Below are positions 4,191 through 42,241 of a DNA stretch of 64,000 nt, one piece after another. Source of the stretch: Rubrivivax sp. Lineage in GTDB: Bacteria > Pseudomonadota > Gammaproteobacteria > Burkholderiales > Burkholderiaceae_C. A program made the translations under genes and the position numbers. The DNA lies in assembly GCA_026125665.1 (NCBI GenBank), contig JAHCKS010000009.1:35778-99777 (forward strand), in the 5' to 3' direction. The first letter of the stretch is position 1. Each line of letters starts with the position of its first letter. Under the pieces are notes generated by a model. It was not told where the DNA came from. It did no database searches and worked only from the letters and a program-made list of their open reading frames with translations.

Positions 4191-5381
4191 ATGAAGCGAT
4201 GCACGAAGTGCCTGACCAAGGAGACCGTCGACACGATCACGTTCGACGAGTTCGGGGTCTGCAGCGTCTGCCGCCAGGTCGAGTTCAAGAAGGAGAAGAT
4301 CGACTGGGCGGAGCGCGGTCGCCAGCTGCAGGCCATCGTCGAGCGGCACAAGGGCCGCGGCCTGTACGACTGCATCGTGCCCTACAGCGGCGGCAAGGAC
4401 AGCACTTTCCAGCTCTGGTACATCGTCAGGCAGCTCGGGCTCAAGCCTCTGGTCGTGCGCTACAACCACTGGGGCTACCGGCCGCTGGTGGACGAGAACA
4501 ACACCAGCGTCTTCAAGCAGCTGGGCGTCGACGTCGTCGAGTTCACGACCAGCTTCCAGGTCGTGCGCGAGCTGATGCTCGAGTCGCTGAAGCGGCGCGG
4601 CGACTTCTGCTGGCACTGCCACACCGGCATCTATGCGGGCGTCATGCACATGGCGGTGCGCTTCGACACGCCGCTGATCTTCTGGGGCGAATCCACGGCG
4701 GAGTACCACAGCTGGTACACGTTCGAGGAGATGGAGGAGGTCGACGAGAAACGTTTCAACCGCGTCATGAACCAGGGCATCACCGCCGACGACATGTTCG
4801 AGTTCCTGCAGGGGCGCGTGGCCCGCCGCGACCTGTGGATGTTCGACTACCCGAAGCGGCAGGACCTGATCCGCCTGAAGGTCGAGTCGATCTGCCTGGG
4901 CAACTACATCGAGTGGAACACCAAGCGCCAGGTCGAGATCATCAAGCGCGAACTCGGCTGGAAGGGACAGGCGGTCGAGGGCGTGCCGCCCGAGTACGAC
5001 TACGAGAAGATCGAGTGCACCTTCCAAGGCATGCGCGACTACGCCAAGTACGTCAAGCGCGGGTACGGCCGCACGAACCACCTGGCCTCGATCGACATCC
5101 GCAACGGCGTGCTCGACCGCGACAGCGCGCTGCAACTGGAGGCGCGCTACGACGGCAAGCGGCCGGCCTCGCTCGACTGGTTCCTGAGGATCCTGCAGAT
5201 CAGCGAGGCCGAGTTCTACGAGATCCTGGCCAAGCACCAGGTCCATCCCTGGAAGTTCGACCCCGCCGCGGTCCAGACCGGGCCGCCGCTGCCCGACATG
5301 CCACGCTGGGACGCGACCCCGCTCGAAGGCCCCGTCGGTCCGCCGCGCGACGACCAGGGGCGCATGAAGAAGTACGTGTGA
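4191..5381 (+). CDS. N-acetyl sugar amidotransferase (WbuX/WbpG/PtmG type), copy 1
   Basis: A 396-residue PP-loop ATPase that should turn an N-acetyl group into an acetamidino group with ATP and ammonia delivered by HisH/HisF homologues. Four N-terminal cysteines (4, 7, 24, 27) form a zinc-ribbon-like pattern. The PP-loop SGGKDST lies at about residues 66-72. A GGAG site at 4179-4182 precedes ATG 4191. HisH and HisF homologues follow within 8 and 13 bases. Adjacent to the nonulosonic acid genes, it most likely forms a 5-acetamidino-legionaminic-type sugar; that target is inference from position. Confidence 0.92.
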   Translation: MKRCTKCLTKETVDTITFDEFGVCSVCRQVEFKKEKIDWAERGRQLQAIVERHKGRGLYDCIVPYSGGKDSTFQLWYIVRQLGLKPLVVRYNHWGYRPLVDENNTSVFKQLGVDVVEFTTSFQVVRELMLESLKRRGDFCWHCHTGIYAGVMHMAVRFDTPLIFWGESTAEYHSWYTFEEMEEVDEKRFNRVMNQGITADDMFEFLQGRVARRDLWMFDYPKRQDLIRLKVESICLGNYIEWNTKRQVEIIKRELGWKGQAVEGVPPEYDYEKIECTFQGMRDYAKYVKRGYGRTNHLASIDIRNGVLDRDSALQLEARYDGKRPASLDWFLRILQISEAEFYEILAKHQVHPWKFDPAAVQTGPPLPDMPRWDATPLEGPVGPPRDDQGRMKKYV

Positions 5382-5388
5382 GCCCGTC

Positions 5389-6033
5389 GTGAACCCCGCA
5401 GATCGCCACGCCGGCCCGGTCGCCATCGTCGACTACGGCATGGGCAACGTGCGCTCGCTGCGCAATGCGCTCGAGTACATCGGCGCCGAGGTCGTCATCA
5501 CGGCCGACGACGCCGAGCTCGACCGTGCCGCGCGCATCGTGCTGCCCGGCGTCGGCGCATTCGGCGACGCGATGCAGGCGATCCGCGAGCGTGGCCTGGA
5601 CCGGGCGCTCACGCACCAGGCGCTCGAGCGGCACAAGCCCGTGCTTGGCATCTGCCTGGGCATGCAGCTGTTCGCGCGCAGCAGCAACGAACACGGAGAG
5701 CATGCCGGGCTCGGGTGGATCGACGCCGACGTGCGCCGGCTGCAGGTCGAGCGCCCGCTGACCGTGCCGCATGTGGGCTGGAACAACGTCGAGTTCGATG
5801 CCGGCGAGGGGCTCTTCGCCGGCATCCGGCCGCCGGAGTCGAACTTCTACTTCGTGCACAGCTACCACATGGTGTGCCACGAGCCCGGCGACTGCGTCGC
5901 GACGACGCGCCACGGGTCGGCGGTCACGGCCGCCGTGCGCCGCGGCAACCTGGTGGCCACGCAGTTCCACCCGGAGAAGAGCCAGGACAACGGGCTCAGG
6001 CTGCTCGCCAACTGGCTGGCGGCCACGCCGTAG
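5389..6033 (+). CDS. hisH: HisH-type glutaminase subunit for sugar amidation, copy 1
   Basis: A 214-residue class I glutamine amidotransferase that hydrolyses glutamine and passes ammonia to its HisF partner. The catalytic triad is visible: Cys in GICLGMQ, and His and Glu in QFHPEKS. Further HisH features are VDYGMGN, LPGVGAFG and FVHSYH. The start is GTG 5389, eight bases after the amidotransferase stop. No histidine-pathway gene lies nearby, so the role is sugar amidation and not imidazole glycerol phosphate synthesis. Confidence 0.9.
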   Translation: MNPADRHAGPVAIVDYGMGNVRSLRNALEYIGAEVVITADDAELDRAARIVLPGVGAFGDAMQAIRERGLDRALTHQALERHKPVLGICLGMQLFARSSNEHGEHAGLGWIDADVRRLQVERPLTVPHVGWNNVEFDAGEGLFAGIRPPESNFYFVHSYHMVCHEPGDCVATTRHGSAVTAAVRRGNLVATQFHPEKSQDNGLRLLANWLAATP

Positions 6034-11245: not shown

Positions 11246-12762
11246 AGAACTCCGCCGAGGTCCTCGCGGCGATCCATGCGCTGGAAGAGGCCTTTCCGGT
11301 CGACACCTGGCACTGTGGCGACCTGCCCCTGTGGCCCTGGTATCGCGTGCGCCTGTACGTCGACGCGGTCAACGACATGCTGGCGGCGAGCCCCTCGTTG
11401 AAGCCGTTGGCACGCCTTCGGCACCTGGCCGGCCGCGCCGCACGTGCCGTCGGCCGCGTGCCCCTGGCCAGCTGGCGTGACCGCCGCAGCAATGCCCCCG
11501 TCCGGTCGGGCGCCACGGCCGTGCTGCTCAGCGACGGCATGTCGTTCACCCGGCTGGGTGAGGCCTGGTACGACCGTGTGATGGACCCGGTCCTGCAGGG
11601 GCTGGCGGCGCAGGGACACGCCGGCCTGAAGCTGACGCCCCTGGCCGAGGCCCATGTGCCGCGGATGGTGCCCTCGCGCTTCGTGCAGCCGCGGATCGAC
11701 CTGATCAAGCTGCTGGCCACGCGGCGTCCGGTGCGGCTTCACGCGCCGGGACTGGACGCGTTACGGCTGGCCGCCGCCGAGCGCTTCCGCGTCGCGGCAC
11801 CGGACGAGGCCTGGCTGCGTTTGCAGGCCGCGCGCTTGCAGGCGCTGGCGAGCTGGTTCGACAAGCCGCTGCGCGCCACGGGCGCATCGCTGGCTTTCGT
11901 GAACACCTACTACTCGCTCGAGGGTCAGGCGTTTGTCCTCGCCGCGCGGCGCCTGGGGCTGCGCACGATCGACCTGCAGCATGGCATGCAGGGACCCCAG
12001 CACGTGGCCTACGCCGGCTGGAGCCGCGTTCCGGCGGGAGGCTACGCGACGCTGCCCGACGAGTTCTGGGTCTGGAGCGAGGAGGATGCCGATGTCATCC
12101 GCGCCTGGGGCGCGCGGGCCGAGGTTCCGCATCGGCCGCGCGTGACCGGCAACTACTGGCTGGACCGCTGGCGCGACGAGAGCGAGCCCCTGGTCGCGCG
12201 CTTCCTGGCCGAAGCCGCCGCCCAGCGCGGCGGCGCCGAACGGCAGGTGCTGGTCAGCCTGATCTGGGGCGTGAGCGAGGACGAAGAGATCAACCGCCTG
12301 ATCGAGGCCGCCCGCCGGTGCCCACCCTCGTTCGGCTGGTGGTGGCGGCTGCATCCGGTCGAGGCGCATCGGCGCGCAGAACTGGCGGCAAGGCTGCAGC
12401 GGCACGGGCTGGACGGCAGCCGGGTTGGCGCCGCCACCGATCTGCCGCTGTATGCGCTCGTGCGCCGCGCCGACATTGTCGTCTCGCACTCGTCGACCGT
12501 GCTGGCCGAAGCGGCACAGCTCGGTGTGCCCTGCGTCGTCACGAGCGACTACGGTGCAGGGTTGCACGAGCGGCTCGTGCGCGACGGCCTGGCGACCCAT
12601 GCCAACGATGCCGCCGGCATCGCTCGCGCCATCGTCGCCGCGGCCGCCCGCACCAGGCCGGCGGCCCGTGCTGGCGGCAGCGCCGCGGGAAGCCTCGCGC
12701 AGGCCCTGCGGGACGTCACCTGCCAGGCACACGGTCTCGTGCCCGCGGAGGCACCAGCATGA
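11242..12762 (+). CDS. Possible GT-B-type glycosyltransferase of unknown family
   Basis: A 506-residue soluble protein. No named family is recognised with certainty. The C-terminal half has the look of a GT-B nucleotide-sugar binding domain: LQHGMQGPQH, VTGNYW, RLHPVE and VVSHSSTVLAEAAQLG, which resembles capsule and teichoic acid transferases of the KpsS/TagF type. The last part of a longer open frame is the real gene; ATG 11242 overlaps the flippase stop. Position beside flippase and nonulosonic acid genes makes it a candidate transferase for the CMP-activated acid; this is inference. Confidence 0.6.
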   Translation: MKNSAEVLAAIHALEEAFPVDTWHCGDLPLWPWYRVRLYVDAVNDMLAASPSLKPLARLRHLAGRAARAVGRVPLASWRDRRSNAPVRSGATAVLLSDGMSFTRLGEAWYDRVMDPVLQGLAAQGHAGLKLTPLAEAHVPRMVPSRFVQPRIDLIKLLATRRPVRLHAPGLDALRLAAAERFRVAAPDEAWLRLQAARLQALASWFDKPLRATGASLAFVNTYYSLEGQAFVLAARRLGLRTIDLQHGMQGPQHVAYAGWSRVPAGGYATLPDEFWVWSEEDADVIRAWGARAEVPHRPRVTGNYWLDRWRDESEPLVARFLAEAAAQRGGAERQVLVSLIWGVSEDEEINRLIEAARRCPPSFGWWWRLHPVEAHRRAELAARLQRHGLDGSRVGAATDLPLYALVRRADIVVSHSSTVLAEAAQLGVPCVVTSDYGAGLHERLVRDGLATHANDAAGIARAIVAAAARTRPAARAGGSAAGSLAQALRDVTCQAHGLVPAEAPA

Positions 12763-13379
12763 TCGCCATCATCGACTACAAGGTCGGCAACCTCGGCTCG
12801 ATCCGCAACATGTTCAAGAAGATCGGGATCGACAGCGCGATCACAGACGATGCCGCCACGATCGCCGCCGCGCCGCGCCTGGTGCTGCCGGGCGTGGGCG
12901 CCTTCGATCGCGGCATGGAGGCGCTGCACGACAGCGGCCTGATCCCGCTGCTCGAGCGCCGCGTGCTCGCCGAACGCGTGCCGATCCTCGGCATCTGCCT
13001 GGGCATGCAGCTGATGGCCCGCCGCAGCGAGGAAGGGGCGCGCCCGGGCCTGGGCTGGATCGACGCCGAGGTGGTGCGCTTCCGCCCGGCCGATGCTGCG
13101 CTGAAGGTGCCGCACATGGGCTGGAACCGCATCGTGCCGACGCGCGAATGCGCGCTCATGCGCAACCTGCCGGAGCAGCCGCGGTTCTACTTCGTGCACT
13201 CCTACCACGTGCGCTGCCGCGATGACGACGACGTCATCGCCACCACGCCCTACGGCGAGACGTTCCACTCGGCCTTCCACCGCGCCAACGTCTGGGGTGT
13301 GCAGTTCCACCCCGAGAAGAGCCACAAGTTCGGCATGGGCCTGCTGCGCAACTTCGCGGCCTGGAGCCCCGCATGCTGA
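12759..13379 (+). CDS. hisH: HisH-type glutaminase subunit for sugar amidation, copy 2
   Basis: A 206-residue class I glutamine amidotransferase with VDYGMGN-like IDYKVGN at the start, LPGVGAF, the nucleophile in GICLGMQ, and His/Glu in QFHPEKS. It differs throughout from copy 1 and so is not a recent duplicate. ATG 12759 overlaps the preceding stop, and its 3' end overlaps hisF copy 2 by seven bases. It should feed ammonia through that barrel to the amidotransferase at 15424-16560. Confidence 0.9.
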   Translation: MIAIIDYKVGNLGSIRNMFKKIGIDSAITDDAATIAAAPRLVLPGVGAFDRGMEALHDSGLIPLLERRVLAERVPILGICLGMQLMARRSEEGARPGLGWIDAEVVRFRPADAALKVPHMGWNRIVPTRECALMRNLPEQPRFYFVHSYHVRCRDDDDVIATTPYGETFHSAFHRANVWGVQFHPEKSHKFGMGLLRNFAAWSPAC

Positions 13380-14131
13380 GCCTGCGTGTCATCCCCTGCC
13401 TGCTGCTGCGCGGCAGCGGCCTCGTGAAGACCGAGAAGTTCAAGGGCGGCAAGTACATCGGCGACCCAGTCAATGCCATCCGCATCTTCAACGAGAAGGA
13501 GGTCGACGAGCTGGTACTGCTCGACATCGCCGCCTCGCGCGAAGGCCGCGCGCCTTCGTTCGCCAAGATCGAGGAGGTGGCGAGCGAGTGCTTCATGCCC
13601 CTGGCCTACGGCGGCGGCATCCGCACCGTGCAGGAGGCGGCTCGCATCCTCAAGCTTGGCGTCGAGAAGGTCATCTTCAACACCACGGCCTGGCGCTCGC
13701 CGCAGGTTCTGACGGATGCGGCGCGCGAGTTCGGTGCGCAGGCCGTGGTAGCGTCGATCGACGTGCGCCGCAGGATGTTCGGCCGCTTCGAGGTGATGGT
13801 CGAGGCCGGCACGCGCGCCACGGGCATCGACCCCGTCGAGTACGCCAGGCGCATGGAGACGGCCGGTGCCGGCGAGATCCTGCTCACGTCGATCGACCGC
13901 GACGGCACGATGAGCGGCTACGACCTGGAGCTGGTCAGCGCCGTCTCGGGCGCGGTGGGCATCCCCGTCATCGCCTCTGGCGGCGCCGGCAGCGTGCAGG
14001 ACTTCGCGGCCGCCAGGCGCAGCGGCGCCGCCGCCGTGGCCGCGGGCGCGATGTTCGTCTTCCAGGGACCGCATCGCGCCGTGCTGATCACCTATCCGGG
14101 TCCGGGTGAGCTGGCGCGTGCCCTCGGCTGA
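13373..14131 (+). CDS. hisF: HisF-type ammonia-channel subunit for sugar amidation, copy 2
   Basis: A 252-residue HisF-family barrel. The cyclase Asp11 position is Leu here as well (VIPCLLL in place of IPCLDV), while the later Asp (SIDVRR) and SIDRDGTMSG are kept. YGGGIRTV is the central phosphate-binding motif. Overlap with hisH copy 2 indicates coupled synthesis of the pair. It resembles the HisF2 of the Pseudomonas aeruginosa O5 locus, which works with WbpG on a diacetamido-mannuronate. Confidence 0.9.
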   Translation: MLSLRVIPCLLLRGSGLVKTEKFKGGKYIGDPVNAIRIFNEKEVDELVLLDIAASREGRAPSFAKIEEVASECFMPLAYGGGIRTVQEAARILKLGVEKVIFNTTAWRSPQVLTDAAREFGAQAVVASIDVRRRMFGRFEVMVEAGTRATGIDPVEYARRMETAGAGEILLTSIDRDGTMSGYDLELVSAVSGAVGIPVIASGGAGSVQDFAAARRSGAAAVAAGAMFVFQGPHRAVLITYPGPGELARALG

Positions 14132-14140
14132 TCGAACGCC

Positions 14141-15427
14141 ATGCCGCTGCGCCTGATGCTCCTGTTCGTGCTGCTCACGCCGCTGGCCGGGGTGGTGCAG
14201 ATGGAGCTGGGCAACTACGGCCCCAGCACGGGCCTGGTGGGTGACCGCAACGGCGCCTCGTGGGCCTTCCTGGCCTATGCCCTGCTCGTGCTGCTCGCGG
14301 CCTGGGCCGTCGCCGGCAACGCGCTGATGCTCGAGCGCGGCGACGCCGCCGGCCTCCGCCGGCGCCTGGACCCGGCAACCGCCCGCCGTGTCGCGCGCTG
14401 GGTGCTCGCCTTCAACCTGGGCTTCATGCTGCTCACGCTCTACCTCTTCGGCGGATTCGACGTGCTCACCGGCGATGTCGGCAAGGGCGAGTTCCGCACC
14501 ACACTCGGCGGGCTGGGCGCGTTCGCGTATCTGACGCTGAAGTGGTTCGCCCCCTCGCTGTTCGCGCTCGCGTGCACCACGCACCTGCTGGCCGGGCGGC
14601 CGTCCGAGAACCGGCGCCGGCTGTTCGCCGGGGCGGCGGTCACTTTCGTGACCGGGCTCGCCTGGGGCTTCAAGACGAGCGGCCTGTTCATCATCCTGCC
14701 GGGCATGTTCGTGCTGCTGTGGTCCGCCAGCCCGCTGCGCACGATGGGTTACTTCTTGCTGGCGCTGGGGCTGATGGTCGCGTCTTTCGCCCTGTTCGAC
14801 ACGCTGGAAGGCACGGTCTACGGCAGCGTCTTCGAGTTCCTGCTCGCCAGGTTCACTGTATTCCAGGGCGAGGTGTCCTGGTACCTGTGGGACCTGTGGG
14901 TGTCGGGCACGCCGATGCCCGACTACGCCGTGACGCTGCTCGCGGCGATCGGCGACCGCCTGTTCTCGCTGCTCAGCGGCATCACGCGCGCCGACTCCGA
15001 GCAGTGGATCCTCGCCCACTACGGCAGCCTGCTCACCTACACGATTGGCCACCCCATCGAAGGCATTGAGGGCGGCCACAGCGTCACGGGCACGCCATTT
15101 TCAGAAGGCCTGATCGCTGGCGGCCTGGCCGGCGCACTGCTGTTCGGCGTGCTGGCGGGCGTGATCTTCGGTTTCGTCTTCCGGCGTCTGCGCTCAGCCC
15201 TTCGGCGCGGGCGCCCGGTGGCTGTCGCGCTGTGGAGCAACTACTCGGTGTGGTTCCTCTTCGCATGGCTGAACAGTGGGGAGATCGTGCAGCTCTTCCA
15301 CATCTCGGTCTTCTTCGGCGCGGCCTTCTGCTGGGGCATGCTGCACGCCGTGCTGTGGCTGGCGAAGCCGCAGGGAAGACTCCGCCGCGCCGCGCGCGCC
15401 ACGACCCTGACCCCTTCGACACCATGA
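14141..15427 (+). CDS. wzy: O-antigen polymerase-like membrane protein (Wzy candidate)
   Basis: A 428-residue protein made mostly of hydrophobic helices (about ten), with a longer polar loop in the second half (around residues 260-320), the usual layout of Wzy polymerases. Wzy proteins have little sequence conservation, so the call rests on topology and on location between a sugar-amidation HisF and a WbuX-type gene. It should join flipped repeat units in the periplasm. Its stop overlaps the next ATG as ATGA. No second polymerase was recognised in the window. Confidence 0.7.
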   Translation: MPLRLMLLFVLLTPLAGVVQMELGNYGPSTGLVGDRNGASWAFLAYALLVLLAAWAVAGNALMLERGDAAGLRRRLDPATARRVARWVLAFNLGFMLLTLYLFGGFDVLTGDVGKGEFRTTLGGLGAFAYLTLKWFAPSLFALACTTHLLAGRPSENRRRLFAGAAVTFVTGLAWGFKTSGLFIILPGMFVLLWSASPLRTMGYFLLALGLMVASFALFDTLEGTVYGSVFEFLLARFTVFQGEVSWYLWDLWVSGTPMPDYAVTLLAAIGDRLFSLLSGITRADSEQWILAHYGSLLTYTIGHPIEGIEGGHSVTGTPFSEGLIAGGLAGALLFGVLAGVIFGFVFRRLRSALRRGRPVAVALWSNYSVWFLFAWLNSGEIVQLFHISVFFGAAFCWGMLHAVLWLAKPQGRLRRAARATTLTPSTP

Positions 15428-16560
15428 ACGCGAACACTTCTCATCGCCACCTCCACCAGGTCTGCACGCGCTGCGTGATGGACACCACCGACGTCGATAT
15501 CACCTTCGACGCGGCGGGCGTGTGCAGCCACTGCCACCGCTACGACCGAGTCGCCCGAGAGCGGCTCATCCCCCCGGCCGAGCGGCCGGCGCGGCTGGCC
15601 GCCCTGGTCGCCGACATCAAGGCGGACGGTCGAGGCAAGCCCTACGACTGCATCATCGGCGTCAGCGGCGGCGTCGACAGCACCTATGTCGCCTGGCTCG
15701 TGAAGGACCTCGGCCTGAGGCCGCTGGCGGTGCATCTGGACAACGGCTGGGACTCCGAACTGGCCGTGGCCAACATCGAGAAGACACTGAAGACGCTGGG
15801 CTTCGACCTGTACACGCACGTCATCGACTGGGACGAGTTCCGCGACCTGCAGGTGGCATTCCTGAAGGCGGCCACACCCGACGGGGAGGTACCCACCGAC
15901 CACGCCATCGCTGCGCTGCTGTACGAACAGGCGGCGCGGCACGGTTTGCGGCACGTGATCTCGGGAACCAACGTCGCCACCGAGGCGGTGCTGCCCGAGA
16001 AGTGGGGCTACGGCTACTTCGACTGGCGCTACGTGCGCGACGTGCACCGTCGTTTCGGCAAGCGCCGGCTAACCACCTATCCGCACTTCTCGCTGCTGAA
16101 GCTGGCCTATTTCATCTTCGTGCGCCGTATCCGCATGGTCTCGCTGCTCAACCACGTCGAGTACGACAAGGCGCAGGCGATGCAGCTGCTGCAGGACAAG
16201 CTCGGCTGGGTGTACTACGGCGGCAAGCACTACGAGTCCGTCTACACGCGCTTCTACCAGGCCTATGTGCTGCCGCGCAAGTTCGCCATCGACAAGCGCA
16301 GGGCGCACCTGTCGAGCCTGATCCTGTCGCGCCAGATGACGCGCGAGCAGGCGCTCGCCGCGCTGCAGGAGCCGGTGCACCCGGAGCGCGCGCTGCTCGA
16401 GGATCGCGACTACAGCATCAAGAAGCTCGGCCTCGATGTCGAGGAGTTCGAGCGCATCATGGCCAGTCCGAACCGGACCTTCCACGACTACCGCACGAGC
16501 CGGGGCTGGTTCGCGATCGCGAAGCGCGTGCTCAATTCCGGCCGCCGCCTCATCGGATGA
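15424..16560 (+). CDS. N-acetyl sugar amidotransferase (WbpG type), copy 2
   Basis: A 378-residue PP-loop ATPase related to copy 1 and to Pseudomonas WbpG. Zinc-ribbon cysteines lie at 14, 17, 34 and 37, and the PP-loop SGGVDST at about residues 82-88. It lies one gene downstream of the second HisH/HisF pair, separated from it by the wzy candidate. With WbpB/WbpD/WbpE homologues and a UDP-GlcNAc 2-epimerase elsewhere in the locus, a plausible substrate is a UDP-diacetamido-mannuronate. That assignment is inference. Confidence 0.9.
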   Translation: MNANTSHRHLHQVCTRCVMDTTDVDITFDAAGVCSHCHRYDRVARERLIPPAERPARLAALVADIKADGRGKPYDCIIGVSGGVDSTYVAWLVKDLGLRPLAVHLDNGWDSELAVANIEKTLKTLGFDLYTHVIDWDEFRDLQVAFLKAATPDGEVPTDHAIAALLYEQAARHGLRHVISGTNVATEAVLPEKWGYGYFDWRYVRDVHRRFGKRRLTTYPHFSLLKLAYFIFVRRIRMVSLLNHVEYDKAQAMQLLQDKLGWVYYGGKHYESVYTRFYQAYVLPRKFAIDKRRAHLSSLILSRQMTREQALAALQEPVHPERALLEDRDYSIKKLGLDVEEFERIMASPNRTFHDYRTSRGWFAIAKRVLNSGRRLIG

Positions 16561-30841: not shown

Positions 30842-31499
30842 GCGGCCTCCCCTGCGCCGACGCGGGCCCGGCGGGCAGTGGCCTGGCCGGGTTGCCAACG
30901 ACACAGGCGCCGCCGGGAACATCGGCCACGACGACCGCGCCCGCGCCGACCACCGCCCCAGGGCCGATGGCCTGGCCATGGCGCACGACGGCGCCGATGC
31001 CGATCCAGGCTTCGTCGCCCACCGTGACACCGCCACCGAGCCGCGCGCCGGGCCCCACGTGCACGGCGCGGCCGAGGTGCACGTCGTGGTCGACGCTGGC
31101 GCCGTGGTTGACGATGCAGGCCGCGCCGAGCGCCGCACCGGGCGCCACGACGGCGCCGGCAGCGACGAAGCAGCCGCCGGCCAGTTCGGCCTCCGCGCTC
31201 ACCACCGCGGCGGGGTGCACGACGGTGGCAAGGCGCAGGCCCTGCAGCTCGCAGCGCTGCACGAAGGCGGCGCGGCGCGCGTTGTCGCCGATGGCGACAT
31301 GGCGCGCGACATCGGCCGCACCCGCCGCCAGGAAGGCCTCGGCATCGCCCCGCACGGGCCAGCGCCCCACACGCGGCGGCAGGCTCCCATCGTCGTCGAA
31401 GAAGGCGATCTCGTCGTAGCGGCCGGCGGGCGCCGCCGCCGCGGCGTCGGCCACCACGCGCCCGTGGCCGCCCGCGCCGAGGATCCACAACACGCTCAC
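30834..31499 (-). CDS. UDP-4-amino sugar acetyltransferase (PglD/NeuD family)
   Basis: A 221-residue PglD-type enzyme: Rossmann-like start WILGAGGHGRVV, then hexapeptide-repeat helix with HPAAVVS, NHGASVDHDVHLG (catalytic His in DHD) and GNPARPLP at the end. It would use acetyl-CoA to acetylate the 4-amino group. GTG 31499 overlaps the sugar transferase stop as GTGA; GTG 31493 is a possible alternative. It is a distant relative of the copy at 1726-2382, which serves the nonulosonic acid module. Confidence 0.88.
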   Translation of the reverse strand: MSVLWILGAGGHGRVVADAAAAAPAGRYDEIAFFDDDGSLPPRVGRWPVRGDAEAFLAAGAADVARHVAIGDNARRAAFVQRCELQGLRLATVVHPAAVVSAEAELAGGCFVAAGAVVAPGAALGAACIVNHGASVDHDVHLGRAVHVGPGARLGGGVTVGDEAWIGIGAVVRHGQAIGPGAVVGAGAVVVADVPGGACVVGNPARPLPAGPASAQGRPHA

Positions 31500-32170
31500 C
31501 GCACCGGCCCCTTGGCTGCCTGCGCAGCCACGGGCGCCTGTCCCTTCGCCGTCTGCACCCCCGCCGGTGGAGGGCCGGCCACGACCGAGCCGCGGAACGG
31601 CTCCATCGTCGCGTGCCCCGGCGCGGCGATGCCTTCGCGCTGCAGCACCTTGGCCAGCGTCAGCGCCAGGATGCGCAGGTCGAGCGCGAAGCCGCGATGG
31701 TCCACGTACCACACGTCGTGCTCGAAGCGCTCCTCCCAGCTCAGCGCGTTGCGGCCGTTCACCTGCGCCCAGCCGGTGACGCCGGGGCGCACCTCGTGGC
31801 GCCGTGCCTGGCGCGGCGTGTACAGCGGCAGGTACTGCACGAGCAGCGGCCGCGGGCCCACGAGGCTCATCTCGCCGCGCAGCACGTTCACGAGGCTCGG
31901 GACCTCGTCCAGGCTCGTGGCGCGCAGCCAGCGGCCGAACGGCGTCAGGCGCTCGGCGTCGGGCAGCAGCTGGCCGCTCGCGCCGCGCGCATCGGTCATG
32001 CTGCGCAGCTTCCAGAGACGGAAGATGCGCCCCTGCCAGCCCACGCGCGGCTGGCGAAAGAAGACCGGGCTGCCGAGCTTGACGCGCACGGCGAGCGCCA
32101 GCACTGCCAGCAGCGGCAGCGTGATCGGCAGCGTGGCCAGCACGACGAGCAGGTCGAAGGCGCGTTTCAT
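31496..32170 (-). CDS. Initiating sugar-1-phosphate transferase (PglC/WcaJ family)
   Basis: A 224-residue monotopic phosphoglycosyltransferase that starts repeat-unit synthesis on undecaprenyl phosphate. It has one N-terminal re-entrant hydrophobic segment (MKRAFDLLVV), then SPVFFRQPRVGW, FRLWKLRSM, the catalytic Asp-Glu in TSLDEVPSL, GPRPLL and VRPGVTGWAQVNG. ATG 32170 was chosen because family members begin here. An in-frame ATG at 32314, overlapping the upstream stop, would add 48 residues, but that stretch has clearly fewer G/C-ending codons and looks unlike the protein. Confidence 0.88.
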   Translation of the reverse strand: MKRAFDLLVVLATLPITLPLLAVLALAVRVKLGSPVFFRQPRVGWQGRIFRLWKLRSMTDARGASGQLLPDAERLTPFGRWLRATSLDEVPSLVNVLRGEMSLVGPRPLLVQYLPLYTPRQARRHEVRPGVTGWAQVNGRNALSWEERFEHDVWYVDHRGFALDLRILALTLAKVLQREGIAAPGHATMEPFRGSVVAGPPPAGVQTAKGQAPVAAQAAKGPVR

Positions 32171-34780: not shown

Positions 34781-36931
34781 TCAACGGTGCAGCCCGAGCG
34801 TGTCGAGCTCGTTCACGCGCCGCACCACGTCGTTGAACGGCAGGCCGATCGTCTCCAGGTACCAGCGCAGCGTCTGCGCGCGCGGCCGGTTCTCCACCAG
34901 CACGGCCTCGAGCGCCTGCGCTCGCGTGAGGTGGCCCTCGCGCACCTGGTTGCTGCGGAAGGTGTCGAACTCGGTGAAGCCGCGCGCCGTGCAGTAGATG
35001 TAGTTGTAGAACGGCGCCGTGCCGTCGCCGATGCGCCAGGTGCTCGGCGAGTCGGGCGCGAGCTCCCAGTCGTACTCGTCGCGCAGGCAGCGGTTCACCT
35101 CGTCCTCGTGCCAGGGGAAGTGGTCGAAGATGAAGAAGAAGTCGCGCCGCGGCTCGACGTAGTAGGCCATGAACGCGCCGAAGGTGTCGGCGAGCGAGCG
35201 GTTCAGGTAGCCGGGGTTGCGCAGGAAGTGCCAGCCGTAGTGCGAGGCCAGGCGCACCTTGCGGCCGAACGACAGGTGGTCGACGCGCTTCTTGCCGAAG
35301 TCCGGCGGCACGCCGCAGAAGCCGCTCTTGAAGTCGGTGTTCTCGAGCGGGTTCGCGCACCAGAGGTCCAGCGCGATGCCGGTCTGGCGCTTGAGCTGGT
35401 TGACGACGCGAAAGAAGTGCTTGTCGCCGGCCATGAAGAGCGGAACCATGCCGAGGTCGGGCTTCCTCAGCCACGCCGCGACGTTGAGGCGGATGTTCTC
35501 GCGCTTGCGGGCGATGTCGGCCGAGACGAGGATGTTCTGGATGCCGAGCTGGCCGCAGATGCGCGCCACGTTGCGCCGCGCGAGGTCGGTGACCATGCCC
35601 CAGTCGTAGGTGAAGGTCACCGGCTCGAGCCCGAACTCCTTCTTGATGAGGTGCAGGCCGTAGCTCGAGTCGCGTCCGCCGCTGAAGGCCACGATGACGT
35701 CGGGCTCGTCGCCGGCGCGGCGGTACTTCTCGAGCGAGCGGATGAAGTCCCGCTTCGACTCCTCCGGGTGCATGCCGGCGTAGCGGGGGCGGTAGCCGGC
35801 GCAGTAGTTGCATACGCCGGCCGCGTCGTAGGCGATGAACGGGAAAGTCTCGGGCAGGATGCAGCGGGTGCAGCGGCGCAGCGCGCGCAGGCGTGATTCG
35901 CCGTAGCGCAGCAGCGACTCGACGGCCGACGGCGCCGCGACGGCGGGCGCGCGCGGCGGGCCACCGAAGGTGTCGTGGTGCTCGGTGGCGGCGCGCGGCA
36001 GCGGCGTGAAGGCCTGGTCGGCCACTCGCTGCGGCACCGGGCCCGGCAGCGCGAGGTCGAAGCGCTCGAGCGCGCCCTCGGCGAGCAGATCCAGCACGAT
36101 GCCCTGGCCCGGCGGCAGCCACTGCACGGGCGGCACGGCGGCCGCCCCTTTCGCCAGGCGCGCAGCGCCGGCCGCAACCCCGTTCTCGCCGAGCGCCTCG
36201 CGCAGCGCCGTTTCCAGGATGTAGCGCTCGGAGGCGAAGACGACAAAACCCTCGTCCAGCCGGTCGCTGACGTAGAGGTCGCCGGTGTTGGTGGCCAGCG
36301 TCACCGCCCCGGCGCCGTCGTGCACCCAGGCCACCGACGCGGCCCCCCTCAGCTCGGCAAACATCGCGCGTGTCGCGTCGGCGGCGGTGGCGCCACGCGC
36401 CTGGGCCGCATCGACGAGCGCGGCCATCACCTCGGTGTCCACCTCCGCCTCGCGACGCAGCCACGGGTGGTTCTGCCACAGCGCGTCGACGTTGACGCAG
36501 ATGCCGTTGTGGATCATCGACACCCGGCCCGAGCGGACCGGCTGGTTGTTCTGCGGCAGCTCGGCAGTGCCGTTGGTGACGAGGCGCGAGTGCGCGAGCA
36601 GCGCCAGGGCCTGCGCCCGCCCGCCGCGCAGGTCACGCCGGGCCGCGTCGCCGCCTCCACCGGGCCGGGCCGTCGCGCCGCTCGTGCCGAAGGCCTCGTC
36701 CACCGGGCCGTCGACGAGCCGCCGGTAGTCGGCCGAAGCGAGCAGCTCGGTGGCACGTTGCGCCCCCTTGAGCGTCCACGCGCGGCCGGCCTCGGGCAGG
36801 TAGGCGTGCAGGCCGGCCGACTCCTTGCCGCGGCTTTCGGAGAGCTGAAACAGCCGCGCGAGCAGCGCCCGCGCGCGCGCCGCCGGCAGCGCGTGGCCCG
36901 GGCGCAGCAGGATGCCGAAGATGCCGCACAT
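34781..36931 (-). CDS. Fusion of class II glutaminase with N-acetyl sugar amidotransferase (WbuX-like)
   Basis: A 716-residue two-part protein. The N-terminal class II glutamine amidotransferase (about residues 1-285) starts MCGIFGI with nucleophile Cys2 and has SRGKESAG, VTNG, IHNGICVN and DTEVMAAL, as in GlmS and asparagine synthetase. After a linker, a zinc-ribbon CTRC/CNYC (from about 353) and a PP-loop SGGRDSS (about 417-423) form a WbuX/WbpG-like amidotransferase. It should therefore make its own ammonia and amidate an N-acetyl sugar without HisH/HisF. No phosphosugar isomerase domain is present. It is the third amidation system of the locus. Confidence 0.85.
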   Translation of the reverse strand: MCGIFGILLRPGHALPAARARALLARLFQLSESRGKESAGLHAYLPEAGRAWTLKGAQRATELLASADYRRLVDGPVDEAFGTSGATARPGGGGDAARRDLRGGRAQALALLAHSRLVTNGTAELPQNNQPVRSGRVSMIHNGICVNVDALWQNHPWLRREAEVDTEVMAALVDAAQARGATAADATRAMFAELRGAASVAWVHDGAGAVTLATNTGDLYVSDRLDEGFVVFASERYILETALREALGENGVAAGAARLAKGAAAVPPVQWLPPGQGIVLDLLAEGALERFDLALPGPVPQRVADQAFTPLPRAATEHHDTFGGPPRAPAVAAPSAVESLLRYGESRLRALRRCTRCILPETFPFIAYDAAGVCNYCAGYRPRYAGMHPEESKRDFIRSLEKYRRAGDEPDVIVAFSGGRDSSYGLHLIKKEFGLEPVTFTYDWGMVTDLARRNVARICGQLGIQNILVSADIARKRENIRLNVAAWLRKPDLGMVPLFMAGDKHFFRVVNQLKRQTGIALDLWCANPLENTDFKSGFCGVPPDFGKKRVDHLSFGRKVRLASHYGWHFLRNPGYLNRSLADTFGAFMAYYVEPRRDFFFIFDHFPWHEDEVNRCLRDEYDWELAPDSPSTWRIGDGTAPFYNYIYCTARGFTEFDTFRSNQVREGHLTRAQALEAVLVENRPRAQTLRWYLETIGLPFNDVVRRVNELDTLGLHR

Positions 36932-36945
36932 GCTGGGTCGTGTCC

Positions 36946-38283
36946 TCAGGCCTTCTCGAGGCGGTTGTCGAGACGATGCTCGAAACGGTTGGCGAGCAGG
37001 TTCCAGCCGACGATCCGCCGGCTGAAGACGAGCAGCGCGGTGGCACCGGCCACGTAGCTGGCCGCCGTACCGCAGGCCGCGCCGACGATGCCCAGGAAGG
37101 GCAGCAGCGCCACCGCCACCCCGGCGTTGACGACCACGGTGATCACCTGCTGCAGCGTCTGGTAGCCCGGATGGCCGCTCACCATCAGGAGGTTGTCGAA
37201 AGGCACCAGCACCGAGACGAGCACGAGGCCGCCCATCAGCACCAGCAGCGACGGCAGGCCCTCGTGCAGGTCCTTGTGCGGCACGACCCAGGTCGCGATC
37301 AGCCACAACGCGACGATGGCCGCGACGCCCATCGCGACGGTGGCCGGCAGCACCAGGCGCGCCGACTGCCGGCGCAGGCCGACGGCCTGCGCGTGGTCGC
37401 GGTCGCGCAGCGAGCCCACCAGCACCGGGTTGAAGTTGATGCGCACCATGGCCAGCACGTGATAGACGCCGTCCACCATCATCGCCGCGAAGCTGTAGAT
37501 GCCGACCTCGCGGTCGGGCAGGAAGACGCCGATCAGCAGCACGTCGATGCGGGAGTTGAACTCGGCGAACATGCCCGCGGCGAGTCCCTTGGCGCCGAAC
37601 CGCACGTGCGTGCGCAGCCAGTCACGATCGAAGCGCAGGTGGCGCACCACGCCACGGCGCGCGATGTAGGCCGCGCAGGCGAGCGCGGTGGCGATCTCGG
37701 CGACGAGGAAGGCGACGGGGGCCACCTCGATCGGCCACGGCCCCGCGGCCACCGTGCAGACTACGGCCATGACGAGCAGGTAGCGCAGGCCCTGCAGGAC
37801 GGAGAAGGCCTTCATGCGCCGCAGGCCGTTGAGATAGGCCAGCAGCACCTTGTTCAGCGAGAAGAGCAGGAGCCCGCTCGACGCCCAGGCGATGGCGCGG
37901 CCGGTGGTGGCGCTGTCGAACAGCGCGCCGAGCCGGCCGGCCGAGAGCGCCAGGAGGCCCGCCCCCCCGGCGCCGAGCGCCAGCGCACAGGCCACCGCCG
38001 TGCCGAACATGCGCCCGCGCGCGTCCTCGTCGGCCTCGTGCAGCGCGGCATGCCGCAGCACGGAGTAGTGCAGGCCGAGTGTCGCCAGCTGCGAAGCGAT
38101 GATGTAGACGGCGTAGGTCTGGTTGAAGACGCCGAGCGCCGCGGCGTCGCGCGCGCCGGCGACGACGAGGTTGATGACCATGCCCGACAGCGCCAGCAGC
38201 ACGAAGCTGCCGAGCGTCCAGCCGATGTCGCGCGCCAGCTTGTGCGAGTGCCAGCGCGCAGCCAGGGGGCCGATCAGCGACAT
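36946..38283 (-). CDS. Polysaccharide flippase-like membrane protein, copy 2
   Basis: A 445-residue protein with about 12 membrane segments and the general shape of MOP-superfamily flippases (TLGSFVLLALSGMVINLVVA at the start, then FAAMMVDGVYHVLAMV and NRIDVLLIG-type segments). It is not closely similar to the flippase at 9728. ATG 38283 was chosen; GTG 38298 in frame is possible. Lying 14 bases upstream of the fusion amidotransferase and downstream of the GT2 enzyme, it may export a different lipid-linked intermediate. Confidence 0.8.
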   Translation of the reverse strand: MSLIGPLAARWHSHKLARDIGWTLGSFVLLALSGMVINLVVAGARDAAALGVFNQTYAVYIIASQLATLGLHYSVLRHAALHEADEDARGRMFGTAVACALALGAGGAGLLALSAGRLGALFDSATTGRAIAWASSGLLLFSLNKVLLAYLNGLRRMKAFSVLQGLRYLLVMAVVCTVAAGPWPIEVAPVAFLVAEIATALACAAYIARRGVVRHLRFDRDWLRTHVRFGAKGLAAGMFAEFNSRIDVLLIGVFLPDREVGIYSFAAMMVDGVYHVLAMVRINFNPVLVGSLRDRDHAQAVGLRRQSARLVLPATVAMGVAAIVALWLIATWVVPHKDLHEGLPSLLVLMGGLVLVSVLVPFDNLLMVSGHPGYQTLQQVITVVVNAGVAVALLPFLGIVGAACGTAASYVAGATALLVFSRRIVGWNLLANRFEHRLDNRLEKA

Positions 38284-38323
38284 GGGGTTCGGAGCCACGG
38301 CGGGCGCGGGCCGCGCACCGGGC

Positions 38324-39322
<999 letters not shown>

Positions 39323-39407: not shown

Positions 39408-39998
39408 TCAGCGCGCGAGCAGCTCCAGGCGCCGGCCGCGGAGACGGTACCGATCACCCGTGTGCGGGCAGGTGGTCTCGACAGGCTCGTCGCTGTGCAG
39501 CGGCAGCGGCAGGCGCTCGCCGTGGCGGCTCATCCAGCCGGCGTGGCGCGCCGGCACGCCGAGCATCAGCGCGAAGGCCGGCACGTCGCGGTTGACCACC
39601 GCCCCGGCACCGACGAAGGCGTGTTCGCCCACCGTGATGCCGCAGACGACGGTGCAGTTGGCGCCGAGCGTGGCGCCGCGCTTCACCAGGGTGCGGCGGT
39701 ACTCGTCCTTGCGCGCCACGGCCGAGCGCGGGTTGTAGACGTTCGTGAACACCATGCTCGGCCCGCAGAAGACGTCGTCCTCCAGCGTCACCGCGTCGTA
39801 GACCGACACGTTGTTCTGCACCTTCACGTTGTCGCCGATCGTCACGTCGTTGCCGACGAAGACGTTCTGGCCGAAGGAGCAACCGCGGCCGATGCGGGCG
39901 CCGGCGCAGATGTGCACGAAGTGCCAGACGCGGCAGCCTTCGCCCAGCTGCGCGCCTTCGTCGACGATGGCGCTGGGATGGATGGTGGTGGCGGCCAC
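39408..39998 (-). CDS. wbpD: UDP-2-acetamido-3-amino-glucuronate N-acetyltransferase (WbpD)
   Basis: A protein of about 196 residues, a left-handed beta-helix acetyltransferase close to Pseudomonas Wbp[49 protein letters not shown] and [13 protein letters not shown]. It acetylates the 3-amino group of the uronic acid on UDP. The start was set at GTG 39998, which gives the N-terminal length known for WbpD; TTG 40016 overlapping the previous stop (TTGA) is an alternative. It closes a wbpE-wbpB-wbpD trio. Confidence 0.9.
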
Positions 39999-40012: not shown

Positions 40013-41086
40013 TCAATACGCCAACGGCAGGTTGATGCGCTTGCCGTCGCGCGCCGACAGGTACATCGCGATCAGCAGCTCGAGCGACTTCAGCCCCTCG
40101 CGGCCGTCGGTGTCGGGCTGCGCCTCGCCGCGCAGCACGCGGATGACGTTGTCGTAGTACAGCGGGTGGCCGAAGCCGTAGACCGAGGTCGTCTGGTAGC
40201 TCGCGTCCTCGATGCCGGCGTCCATCTCGTGCGGCGTGTCGAACTGCCAGTGCTGGATCTGGTTCACCGCCACGCCGCCGACGCGCACGCTGCCGCGCTC
40301 GCCGAGGATGGTGATCGAGCCCTCCATGTTCTTCGGCCAGGTGAGCATCGTCACGTTGATGCTGCCCATGGCGCCGTTGCGCCACTTCAGCGCCGCCACG
40401 CCGGTGTCCTCGACCTCGATGTTGCGCGCCAGCGTGCCGGTGTAGGCCATGACGCTCTCCACCGGGCCGATCAGCCAGTCGAGCAGGTCGACGTAGTGGC
40501 TCGCCTGGTTCATCAGCGCGCCGCCGTCGAACTCCCAGGTGCCACGCCATTCGGCGCTGTCGTAGTACGACTGCGGCCGCGTCCAGAAGACGTTGACGTT
40601 GACCATGTAGATGCGGCCGAAGCGGCCGAGCTGCATGCACTGCTTGAGCAGCTGCAGCGTGCGGTTGCGGCGGTTCTGCTTGACGACGAACAGGCGCACG
40701 CCGGCGTCGTCGCAGGCACGCACCATCGCCAGCCCGTCGGCCCAGCGCGTGGCCATCGGCTTCTCGGTCATCACGTCGATGCCGGCACCGGCGACCTCCA
40801 TCGCCTGCTGCGGATGCAGGCCGCTCGGCGTGGCGAGCACGACGCAGTCCGGTCGCGTCGCCGGCGTCGCCGCGGCGAGCAGCGCCGACAGGCTGGCGAA
40901 GCCTGGCGCGCCGGTGCGCTGCTTCGCGGCGGCAAGCGCGGCCGGGTCGTTGTCGCAGACGGCGACGAGCTCGGCGCGCTCGGCGTGGCGCCCGATGGCC
41001 TCGAAGTGGTTGGCGGCGATGCGGCCACAGCCGACGAGCGCAAAGCGCAGCTTGCGCTCGGTGATGGGGGGGCGCTGCAGATGCAT
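40013..41086 (-). CDS. wbpB: UDP-N-acetylglucosaminuronate 3-dehydrogenase (WbpB), Gfo/Idh/MocA family
   Basis: A 357-residue dehydrogenase with Rossmann motif [22 protein letters not shown], the family signature TEKPMA (catalytic Lys) and the substrate-side [10 protein letters not shown]. WbpB oxidises C-3 of UDP-GlcNAcA, coupled to alpha-ketoglutarate as oxidant, before WbpE aminates it. Gene order next to WbpE and WbpD homologues supports this. The 6-dehydrogenase WbpA that would make the uronate was not found in the window. Confidence 0.9.
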
Positions 41087-41104: not shown

Positions 41105-42241
41105 TCAGTGCGCCGGGGCGGCGGCTCGCGGCGCCGCTTTCGCGCCGCCGGCGACGGCCGCCGAAAGAGCCTGCACGACGCGGTCCTGGTCCGCTTCGGC
41201 GAGGTCGGCGCTCATCGGCAGGCTCAACACGCGCTCGGCGACACGTTCGCTCACCGGGCAGGGGTCGGCGCCGGCGTACTGCGCGTAGGCCGGCTGCCGG
41301 TGCAGCGGCCTCGGGTAGTGCACCGCCGTGGGCACGCCCGCGGTCTGCAGTGCGGCCTGGACATCGGCACGGTCGTCGACCATCACCGTGTACTGCGCGT
41401 ACACCGAGTTGCGGTCGCCGCGCACGGCGACGCGCTGCACGCCGGGAATGCCGGCCAGCAGCCGCTCGTAGCGCACGCCGATCGCGGCGCGGCGCTCGAG
41501 CTCCCACTCGAAGCGCTCGAGCTTGCCCAGCAGCACCGCCGCCTGGATCGTGTCCAGCCGCCCGCCGACGCCCACGCGCGTGTGCAGGTAACGGCCACTC
41601 TGGCCATGCACGCGGATCTCGCGCGCCGCCTGCGCGAGGCGGTCGTCGTCGGTGAAGAGCGCGCCGCCGTCGCCGTAGCAGCCGAGCGGCTTGCTCGGGA
41701 AGAAGCTCGTCGCGCCCCAGGTCGACAACGCACAAGAGCGCCGGCCCTTGTAGAGCGCACCGAAGCTCTGCGCGGCGTCCTCGATGACCGCCAGGCCGTG
41801 GCGCGCCGCCACCGCGTTGATCTCGTCCAGGTCGGCCACCTGGCCGTACAGGCTCACCGGCATGATCGCCTTCGTGCGCGGCGTCACGGCCGCGGCGATG
41901 CGCGAGGCGTCGATGTTGCAGGTGTCGGGCTCGATGTCGACGAAGACCGGCTTCAGGCCGGCCAGCACGATCATCTCCGCCGTCGCCGCGAAGGTGAACG
42001 GCGTGGTGATGACCTCGTCGCCGGGGTCGAGATCCAGCGCCATCAGCGCGATCAGCAGCGCCTCGGTGCCGCTGGCCACCGTGATGCAGTGGCGCGAGCC
42101 GGTGAACTTCGCGAGCGCCTCCTCGAGCTCCTTCACCTCGGGGCCGAGGATGTACTGGCCGTGGTCGAGCACGCGCTGGATGCGGGTGTCGATGCTGGCC
42201 TTGAGCGCCGCGTACTGGGCCTTGAGGTCGGTGAACTGCAT
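41105..42241 (-). CDS. wbpE: UDP-3-keto-glucuronate aminotransferase (WbpE), DegT family
   Basis: A 378-residue PLP enzyme, very like Wbp[35 protein letters not shown] and the PLP lysine in [14 protein letters not shown], then [10 protein letters not shown] and [10 protein letters not shown]. It transfers an amino group from glutamate to C-3 of the keto-uronic acid. It is the first gene of the reverse-strand row, and a TACAAT hexamer about 28 bases upstream may be its promoter. Confidence 0.93.

Follow-up and report, generated by a model that had tools for sequence, protein, structure and literature searches.

A single-chain protein joining a class II glutaminase to a WbuX-like synthetase, a probable glutamine-dependent sugar amidotransferase

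Introduction

Acetamidino sugars occur as decorations of surface glycans and flagella in bacteria. In the canonical system for their synthesis a class I glutaminase (HisH) and a barrel protein (HisF) are encoded as genes separate from that of the synthetase WbuX, the Pseudomonas aeruginosa set being WbpG/HisH2/HisF2. According to the accessible part of PMC10607449, WbpG turns the acetyl group of a 3-acetamido sugar into an acetamidino group, and the N-acetyl sugar amidotransferase (NASAT) enzyme family to which such proteins belong is little known in structure and function. Here we describe a gene from a 64,000-nucleotide stretch of a Rubrivivax sp. draft genome (the window, meaning that whole stretch) whose product joins a class II glutaminase and a WbuX-like domain in one barrel-free chain. 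We consider it probable that this protein is a self-contained glutamine-dependent sugar amidotransferase acting on a sugar N-acetyl group, an interpretation put forward in an initial annotation of the DNA and supported by the present analysis, in which the fused architecture, its conserved residues, the homology and predicted folds, the separation from HisH/HisF genes and the operon context were all computed. No description of a glutaminase-WbuX fusion was found among the matches listed from the open-licence literature.

The fused protein

The gene is a single open reading frame (ORF) on the - strand; it begins with an ATG at 36931, ends with the stop codon at 34781 and encodes 716 amino acids (aa), so that both parts do lie in one frame, as had been claimed. 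Its parts are as follows.

34781..36931, - strand: fused glutamine-dependent amidotransferase (predicted), single ORF, 716 aa
36044..36928, - strand: class II (N-terminal nucleophile, Ntn; GlmS-type) glutaminase domain, approximately residues 2-296
35885..36043, - strand: linker, approximately residues 297-349, partly of low confidence in the model
34784..35884, - strand: WbuX/NASAT-like synthetase domain, residues 350-716, with C354/C357/C374/C377 and the PP-loop S417-S422

Both halves belong to known types, and the translation has all the motifs named in the initial annotation: Cys2, IHNG, DTEVM, a zinc-ribbon motif (here two CxxC pairs) and SGGRDS. The libraries searched with the protein were Pfam and NCBIfam, and no NCBIfam model reaches its own cut-off on the whole sequence. 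The N-terminal half scores over the Pfam cut-offs for PF13522 (GATase_6, 43.6 bits, cut-off 27) and PF13537 (GATase_7, 30.1 bits, cut-off 25) and has a cysteine directly after the methionine, which by sequence places it among the class II glutamine amidotransferases and bears out the GlmS/AsnB-type glutaminase proposed for the N-terminus. In an alignment of 80 rows of fused proteins, from which two members at contig ends (L025 and L036) and a broken one (L057) were omitted, Cys2 (80 of 80), Arg116, Asn142-Gly143 and Asp165 are invariant. Overall, this half is less conserved than the C-terminal one, with mean pairwise identities of 0.34 and 0.56, respectively.

The C-terminal half is homologous to WbuX along its length, a profile-profile comparison giving 332 aligned columns with Prob 100 and E 2.7e-44. 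The PP-loop SGGXDS and the tetracysteine motif CXXCXn[GN]XCXXC, which the accessible part of PMC10607449 gives as marks of the NASAT superfamily, are both found, the former as S417-S422 (the same in all 80 rows) and the latter as C354 and G372 (80 of 80) with C357, C374 and C377 (79 of 80). The four cysteines are thus present as putative zinc ligands. The predicted fold of this half also matches that of a solved NASAT member, LpNASAT (PDB 8WEX). The curated cut-off of the WbuX model TIGR03573 (203.2 bits) is not reached, the fused protein scoring 105.4 bits (E 4e-30; 108.7 bits for the C-terminal half alone), with residues 353-478 as the best stretch; other fused members score 90-156 bits and remain below the cut-off even where the match runs from end to end. 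The WbuX-like assignment therefore stands for the zinc motif, the PP-loop and the homology over the C-terminal half, and fails for membership of TIGR03573 as defined by its cut-off. We would class the fused proteins as a clade that is sister to WbuX, carries its glutaminase in cis and is not part of TIGR03573.

Two more familiar identities were rejected. GlmS has sugar isomerase (SIS) domains, whereas the fused protein gives no SIS match in Pfam at E 0.01, carries a PP-loop synthetase instead and scores 31.4 bits with TIGR01135 (cut-off 418). As for AsnB, TIGR01536 gives 23.5 bits (cut-off 267), there is no match to PF00733 (Asn_synthase) at E 0.01, and hhalign of the C-terminal half against asparagine synthetase reaches only Prob 28.5 and E 6e-4, so that it is not an asparagine synthetase in place of a WbuX relative. 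The initial annotation was hence right in seeing neither a phosphosugar isomerase nor an asparagine synthetase domain. AsnB and beta-lactam synthetase do have the same order of parts, with the Ntn glutaminase first and the PP-loop ATPase second, but the PP-loop half here comes from another family, and the pairing appears to have arisen a second time, independently.

A structure model of the whole protein, built from an alignment of 74 rows (71 of the 80 loci described below plus the window protein, L002 and L003), has a mean predicted local distance difference test score (pLDDT) of 90.0 and a predicted template modelling score (pTM) of 0.90. The linker is partly of low confidence, with block means of pLDDT between 58 and 97 and values below 50 at residues 298-305. 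Solved asparagine synthetase chains align over about 190-200 residues of the model, roughly the glutaminase half.

Separation from HisH and HisF

We compared 84 loci with a fused gene and 27 control loci with a canonical WbuX, using the HisH and HisF proteins of the window as queries and flanks within about 8 kb. The fused loci are not independent and at most 83 are distinct (L165 and L032 are a single record, and L027 and L028 appear to be near copies), so that a Fisher value computed on the loci is descriptive; two of the controls (L155 and L162) are shorter stretches. Relatives of both HisH and HisF were found near the canonical WbuX in 24 of the 27 controls (all but L156, L158 and L162), against 2 of the 84 fused loci (L076 and L163), in both of which they lie beside a separate canonical WbuX. 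Short flanks are not the cause of this scarcity: the numbers of loci with more than 2, 4 and 6 kb on both sides were 66, 55 and 47 of 80, with HisH in 1, 0 and 0, and neither HisH nor HisF appeared in any of the 55 with more than 4 kb. Thus, to the tetracysteine, PP-loop, homology and fold that the fused protein shares with the WbuX/WbpG family (TIGR03573, LpNASAT) are opposed its low TIGR03573 score, its own clade (see below), the class II glutaminase in cis and the near absence of HisH/HisF.

In five of the seven genomes reached through fused loci there is no canonical WbuX over the cut-off. The genome of the window has three such genes, one on contig C238 and two in the window itself, on the + strand, where they form WbuX/HisH/HisF sets separate from the - strand operon of the fused gene:

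4191..5381, + strand: canonical WbuX 1 (comparison), TIGR03573 363.2 bits, over the cut-off
5389-6033, + strand: HisH of set 1, PF00117
6047-6823, + strand: HisF of set 1, from translation and coordinates
15424..16560, + strand: canonical WbuX 2 (comparison), TIGR03573 292.1 bits, over the cut-off
12759-13379, + strand: HisH of set 2, from translation and coordinates
13373-14131, + strand: HisF of set 2, PF00977

Set 1 adjoins genes that by eye are NeuB-, NeuA- and PtmE-like. Two of the canonical loci deserve mention in their own right. In L139 (G279) a HisF-type barrel (PF00977, 174.7 bits, frame residues 158-399) is followed in one open frame by a canonical WbuX over the TIGR03573 cut-off, an arrangement that, at the level of sequence, speaks for HisF and WbuX being coupled directly in the usual system. 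It resembles our protein in joining a WbuX domain in frame to an ammonia-handling partner, but differs from it both in the partner and in the score of the WbuX half. In L137 (G502) a canonical WbuX over the cut-off lies directly downstream of a gene that is AsnB-like by eye, possibly another ammonia source.

Distribution and phylogeny

Genome contigs searched with an alignment of three rows gave at least 302 relatives, of which the best 80 were kept. Among these, 77 are complete single ORFs, two run off the end of a contig but keep both halves in frame, and one (L057) is broken. Both halves are therefore in one frame in 79 of the 80 other records, which confirms the fusion in related genomes and rules out an assembly error or frameshift. 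The hosts named in the records comprise Burkholderiales, Legionella, Rhodopseudomonas, Bacteroidetes, Planctomycetes, Acidobacteria, Geomonas (G. paludis in L050), Mobilitalea, Patescibacteria and two archaeal groups, proving that the fusion is widespread across bacterial and some archaeal groups. The 80 loci were chosen for full-length similarity, partly through an N-terminal pattern, and so do not serve to estimate how frequent the fusion is.

Two genome samples searched with other queries also gave mostly fused members, and in each of them the fused count includes the centre genome. Among 397 Pseudomonadota genomes there were five middle-scoring WbuX matches (94-135 bits), four of them fused (G000, which is the genome of the window, G162, G506 and G628) and the fifth (L166, in G091) a lone, unfused NASAT-like protein of 374 aa with a TIGR03573 score of 104.8 bits. 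Among 296 Bacteroidota genomes, the phylum of L042, six members of the C-half clade scored above 360 bits and five were fused, including the one in G650, the genome of L042 and centre of that sample. No intact unfused member of the clade was seen in the 397 Pseudomonadota and 296 Bacteroidota genomes. The gene is patchy at close range, being found in none of the 15 other genomes of the same family shown in the Pseudomonadota sample, and nothing in the phage collection matched it. In the sixth Bacteroidota member of the C-half clade (L180, in G691) the gene is interrupted by what is, by eye, a transposase-like stretch.

A quick tree, with long branches, was made from 37 of the 80 fused C-terminal halves, 24 canonical WbuX proteins and L166. 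The canonical proteins, which had passed a length and motif filter, came from 19 of the 27 control loci (20 proteins), from the fused loci L076 and L163 (2) and from the window (2); eight control loci gave none, and the third WbuX of the window's own genome was not caught. A single branch with support 100 separates all the fused halves from the other proteins, and their stem measures 3.47 changes per column. The unity of this clade seems trustworthy, while its sister group is uncertain because of the long branches elsewhere in the tree; L166 falls outside the fused rows on a very long, weakly placed branch. The pairwise identities of the two halves covary (r 0.73; none of 2000 permutations as high), as expected from travel as one gene, although shared host descent alone can give the same result.

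Gene neighbourhood

The fused gene lies in a run of genes in the order WlbC-WlbA-WlbB-GT2-Wzx-FUSED-812aa-PglC-PglD-PglE-PglF. Between the stop of the upstream flippase and the ATG of the fused gene there are 14 bases, and 31 bases separate the end of the fused gene from the next start, a tight spacing that places the fused gene inside an operon-like run:

41105..42241, - strand: WlbC/WbpE-like aminotransferase, PDB 3nyu 'Aminotransferase WbpE', E 8.6e-128
40013..41086, - strand: WlbA/WbpB-like oxidoreductase, PDB 3q2i 'dehydrogenase', E 1.4e-182, Pfam GFO_IDH_MocA
39408..39998, - strand: WlbB/WbpD-like acetyltransferase, PDB 3mqg 'lipopolysaccharides biosynthesis acetyltransferase', E 4.1e-92
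38324..39322, - strand: family 2 glycosyltransferase (GT2), polyprenyl-phosphate type according to its best NCBIfam matches, below cut-off
36946..38298, - strand: Wzx-type flippase, PF01943
32311..34749, - strand: 812-aa protein, next gene downstream, no Pfam match at E 1
31496..32170, - strand: PglC-like sugar transferase, PF02397 (Bac_transf), 201.4 bits
30834..31499, - strand: PglD/NeuD-like acetyltransferase, PF17836 (PglD_N), 55.5 bits
29648..30841, - strand: PglE-like DegT aminotransferase, PF01041, 298.8 bits
27636..29627, - strand: PglF/WbpM-like dehydratase, PF02719, 384.9 bits

We take PDB 3q2i to be WlbA and 3mqg to be WlbB, and the names PglC, PglE and PglF/WbpM for the genes with PF02397, PF01041 and PF02719 are likewise our assumption. 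The 812-aa protein may be, judged by eye, a multi-pass membrane glycosyltransferase; its homologue in L033 also gives no Pfam match at E 1. Nearly the whole order is seen again in L030, except for PglF, and in L033 (Rhodopseudomonas faecalis), except for WlbC, and both loci add a UDP-sugar dehydrogenase (Pfam UDPG_MGDP_dh).

Across the fused loci, clusters of flippases, sugar transferases, family 4 glycosyltransferases (GT4) and GT2 enzymes stand near 32, 31, 31 and 29 of 80 genes. Compared with the canonical controls, the fused loci more often have a flippase (37 of 84 versus 0 of 27), a GT2 (36 versus 1), a sugar transferase (39 versus 3) and a homologue of the 812-aa protein (13 versus 0), figures biased towards the window's own types of flippase and GT2 since the queries came mostly from the window. 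NeuB is commoner at canonical loci (14 of 27, against 2 of 84), and AsnB lies near 10 of 84 fused and 2 of 27 canonical loci, although these are rough counts with queries chosen by a longest-frame rule. In the 12 loci closest to that of the window (L025-L036) we found the flippase in 10, GT2 in 9, the 812-aa protein in 10 and the sugar transferase in 9; the PglD-, PglE- and PglF-like genes are near 4, 5 and 3, several of the stretches being short.

Proposed function and alternatives

As far as sequence can tell, the fused protein works like the WbuX-HisH-HisF system, and we presume the same reaction, in which ammonia from glutamine is placed with ATP onto a sugar N-acetyl group. Removal of Met1 would expose Cys2 of the Ntn glutaminase, which would split glutamine and release ammonia; the PP-loop of the WbuX-like domain would use ATP to activate the carbonyl of the sugar N-acetyl group, the activated form most likely being an adenylate; and the ammonia would displace AMP to form the acetamidino group, with the acetamidino sugar, AMP and pyrophosphate leaving. 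The glutaminase in cis would thereby replace both HisH and HisF of the three-gene system. From family membership we infer the glutamine-splitting and amidine-forming steps, glutaminase activity and adenylation among them, and the substrate and product are predictions too; the fused architecture and the confidently predicted packing of the domains suggest that ammonia would pass inside the protein from Cys2 to the PP-loop site.

In the P. aeruginosa O5 pathway, steps of the WlbA/B/C type build a 3-acetamido sugar. Because the neighbouring WlbA/B/C-like genes resemble that pathway, a 2,3-diacetamido sugar or uronic acid is the probable substrate in the subclade of the window, its 3-acetamido group being the likely site of amidation and a flippase-exported glycan its probable destination. 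On the locus counts given in the next paragraph we dropped these genes as a mark of the whole family, at least one of them being found in 34 of the 84 fused loci and none in the fetched flank of the other 50, and other members may therefore use other sugars. On balance we lean, with somewhat less assurance than for the individual protein, towards a so far unrecognised family of single-chain acetamidino-sugar enzymes across bacterial and archaeal phyla, with a glutaminase-WbuX pairing independent of the asparagine-synthetase lineage, a HisF-free ammonia route and often flippase/GT2 export modules of its own.

Several observations weigh against this proposal. The WlbA-, WlbB- and WlbC-like genes lie near 19, 25 and 21 of the 84 fused loci and 5, 5 and 10 of the 27 canonical ones, and even among the 12 closest loci near 7, 8 and 6, three of these being cut on that side. 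The long stem to canonical WbuX marks the C-terminal half as a distant relative, and its score below the TIGR03573 cut-off, together with conserved residues particular to fused C-terminal halves (R453, K476, G502, the WRIGDG block at 632-637 and others), indicates that chemistry or substrate may differ. The canonical proteins were picked by their zinc and PP-loop motifs, so that on the canonical side the 100% conservation of some of these residues is by construction. Finally, the channel geometry of AsnB gets no support for the modelled protein, the alignment being confined to about the glutaminase half.

The strongest competing reading has the same machinery amidate a carboxylate instead: with unchanged glutamine and ATP chemistry, the C-terminal half would adenylate the carboxylate of a hexuronic acid and yield a primary uronamide. 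PP-loop amidotransferases commonly target carboxylates, and a relative of UDP-sugar 6-dehydrogenase (query from L033) near 10 of 84 fused versus 1 of 27 canonical loci makes uronic acid substrates plausible, as the residues particular to the fused C-terminal halves would also allow. This dehydrogenase is nevertheless within the fetched flank of only those 10 loci, the operon of the window includes an N-acetyltransferase relative, and the C-terminal half, homologous to WbuX throughout, has the NASAT cysteines and fold. Uronamide formation is, besides, assigned to AsnB-type enzymes, a different PP-loop family, and we regard such a carboxamide synthase as unlikely. A genuine glutaminase might also serve a different acceptor, the C-terminal half adding nitrogen in some other form to an intermediate of glycan or lipid nature; the wide spread and variable neighbourhoods of the family, the 50 loci lacking WlbA/B/C-like genes in the fetched flank and the long separate stem would fit, but the recurrent glycan genes (flippase, sugar transferase, GT4 and GT2) speak for a sugar, and we hold this to be less probable still.

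That the glutaminase half could be regulatory or inactive, with ammonia taken from solution or from another protein, is suggested by its lower pairwise identity; since its mappable catalytic residues are invariant in 80 rows, and both halves share one frame in each intact member examined, we think this very improbable. Hardly any weight is left for an artefact of assembly or frameshift, or for the protein being simply GlmS or an asparagine synthetase. The genome that carries it is a draft of 268 contigs and 88.6% complete, but the same fusion in 79 of 80 other records refutes an artefact, and the GlmS and AsnB models give 31.4 of 418 and 23.5 of 267 bits. If the preferred acetamidino-forming function is true, a one-chain, glutamine-fed enzyme would open the reaction to tests that need no more than one purified protein, and the family would offer a clean case of exchange of ammonia supplier, a class I glutaminase with a barrel in one system and a class II enzyme in the other feeding the same kind of synthetase.

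Plasmid-borne relatives

The proposed function would also correct the names under which such proteins are recorded, since the relatives seen in plasmid records carry misleading or empty ones. Two plasmid-borne relatives of the fused gene, L185 (Agrobacterium sp. MA01) and L186 (Solidesulfovibrio carbinolicus), are annotated as 'glucosamine 6-phosphate synthetase' and '7-cyano-7-deazaguanine synthase', and both lie near glycosyltransferase and asnB genes.
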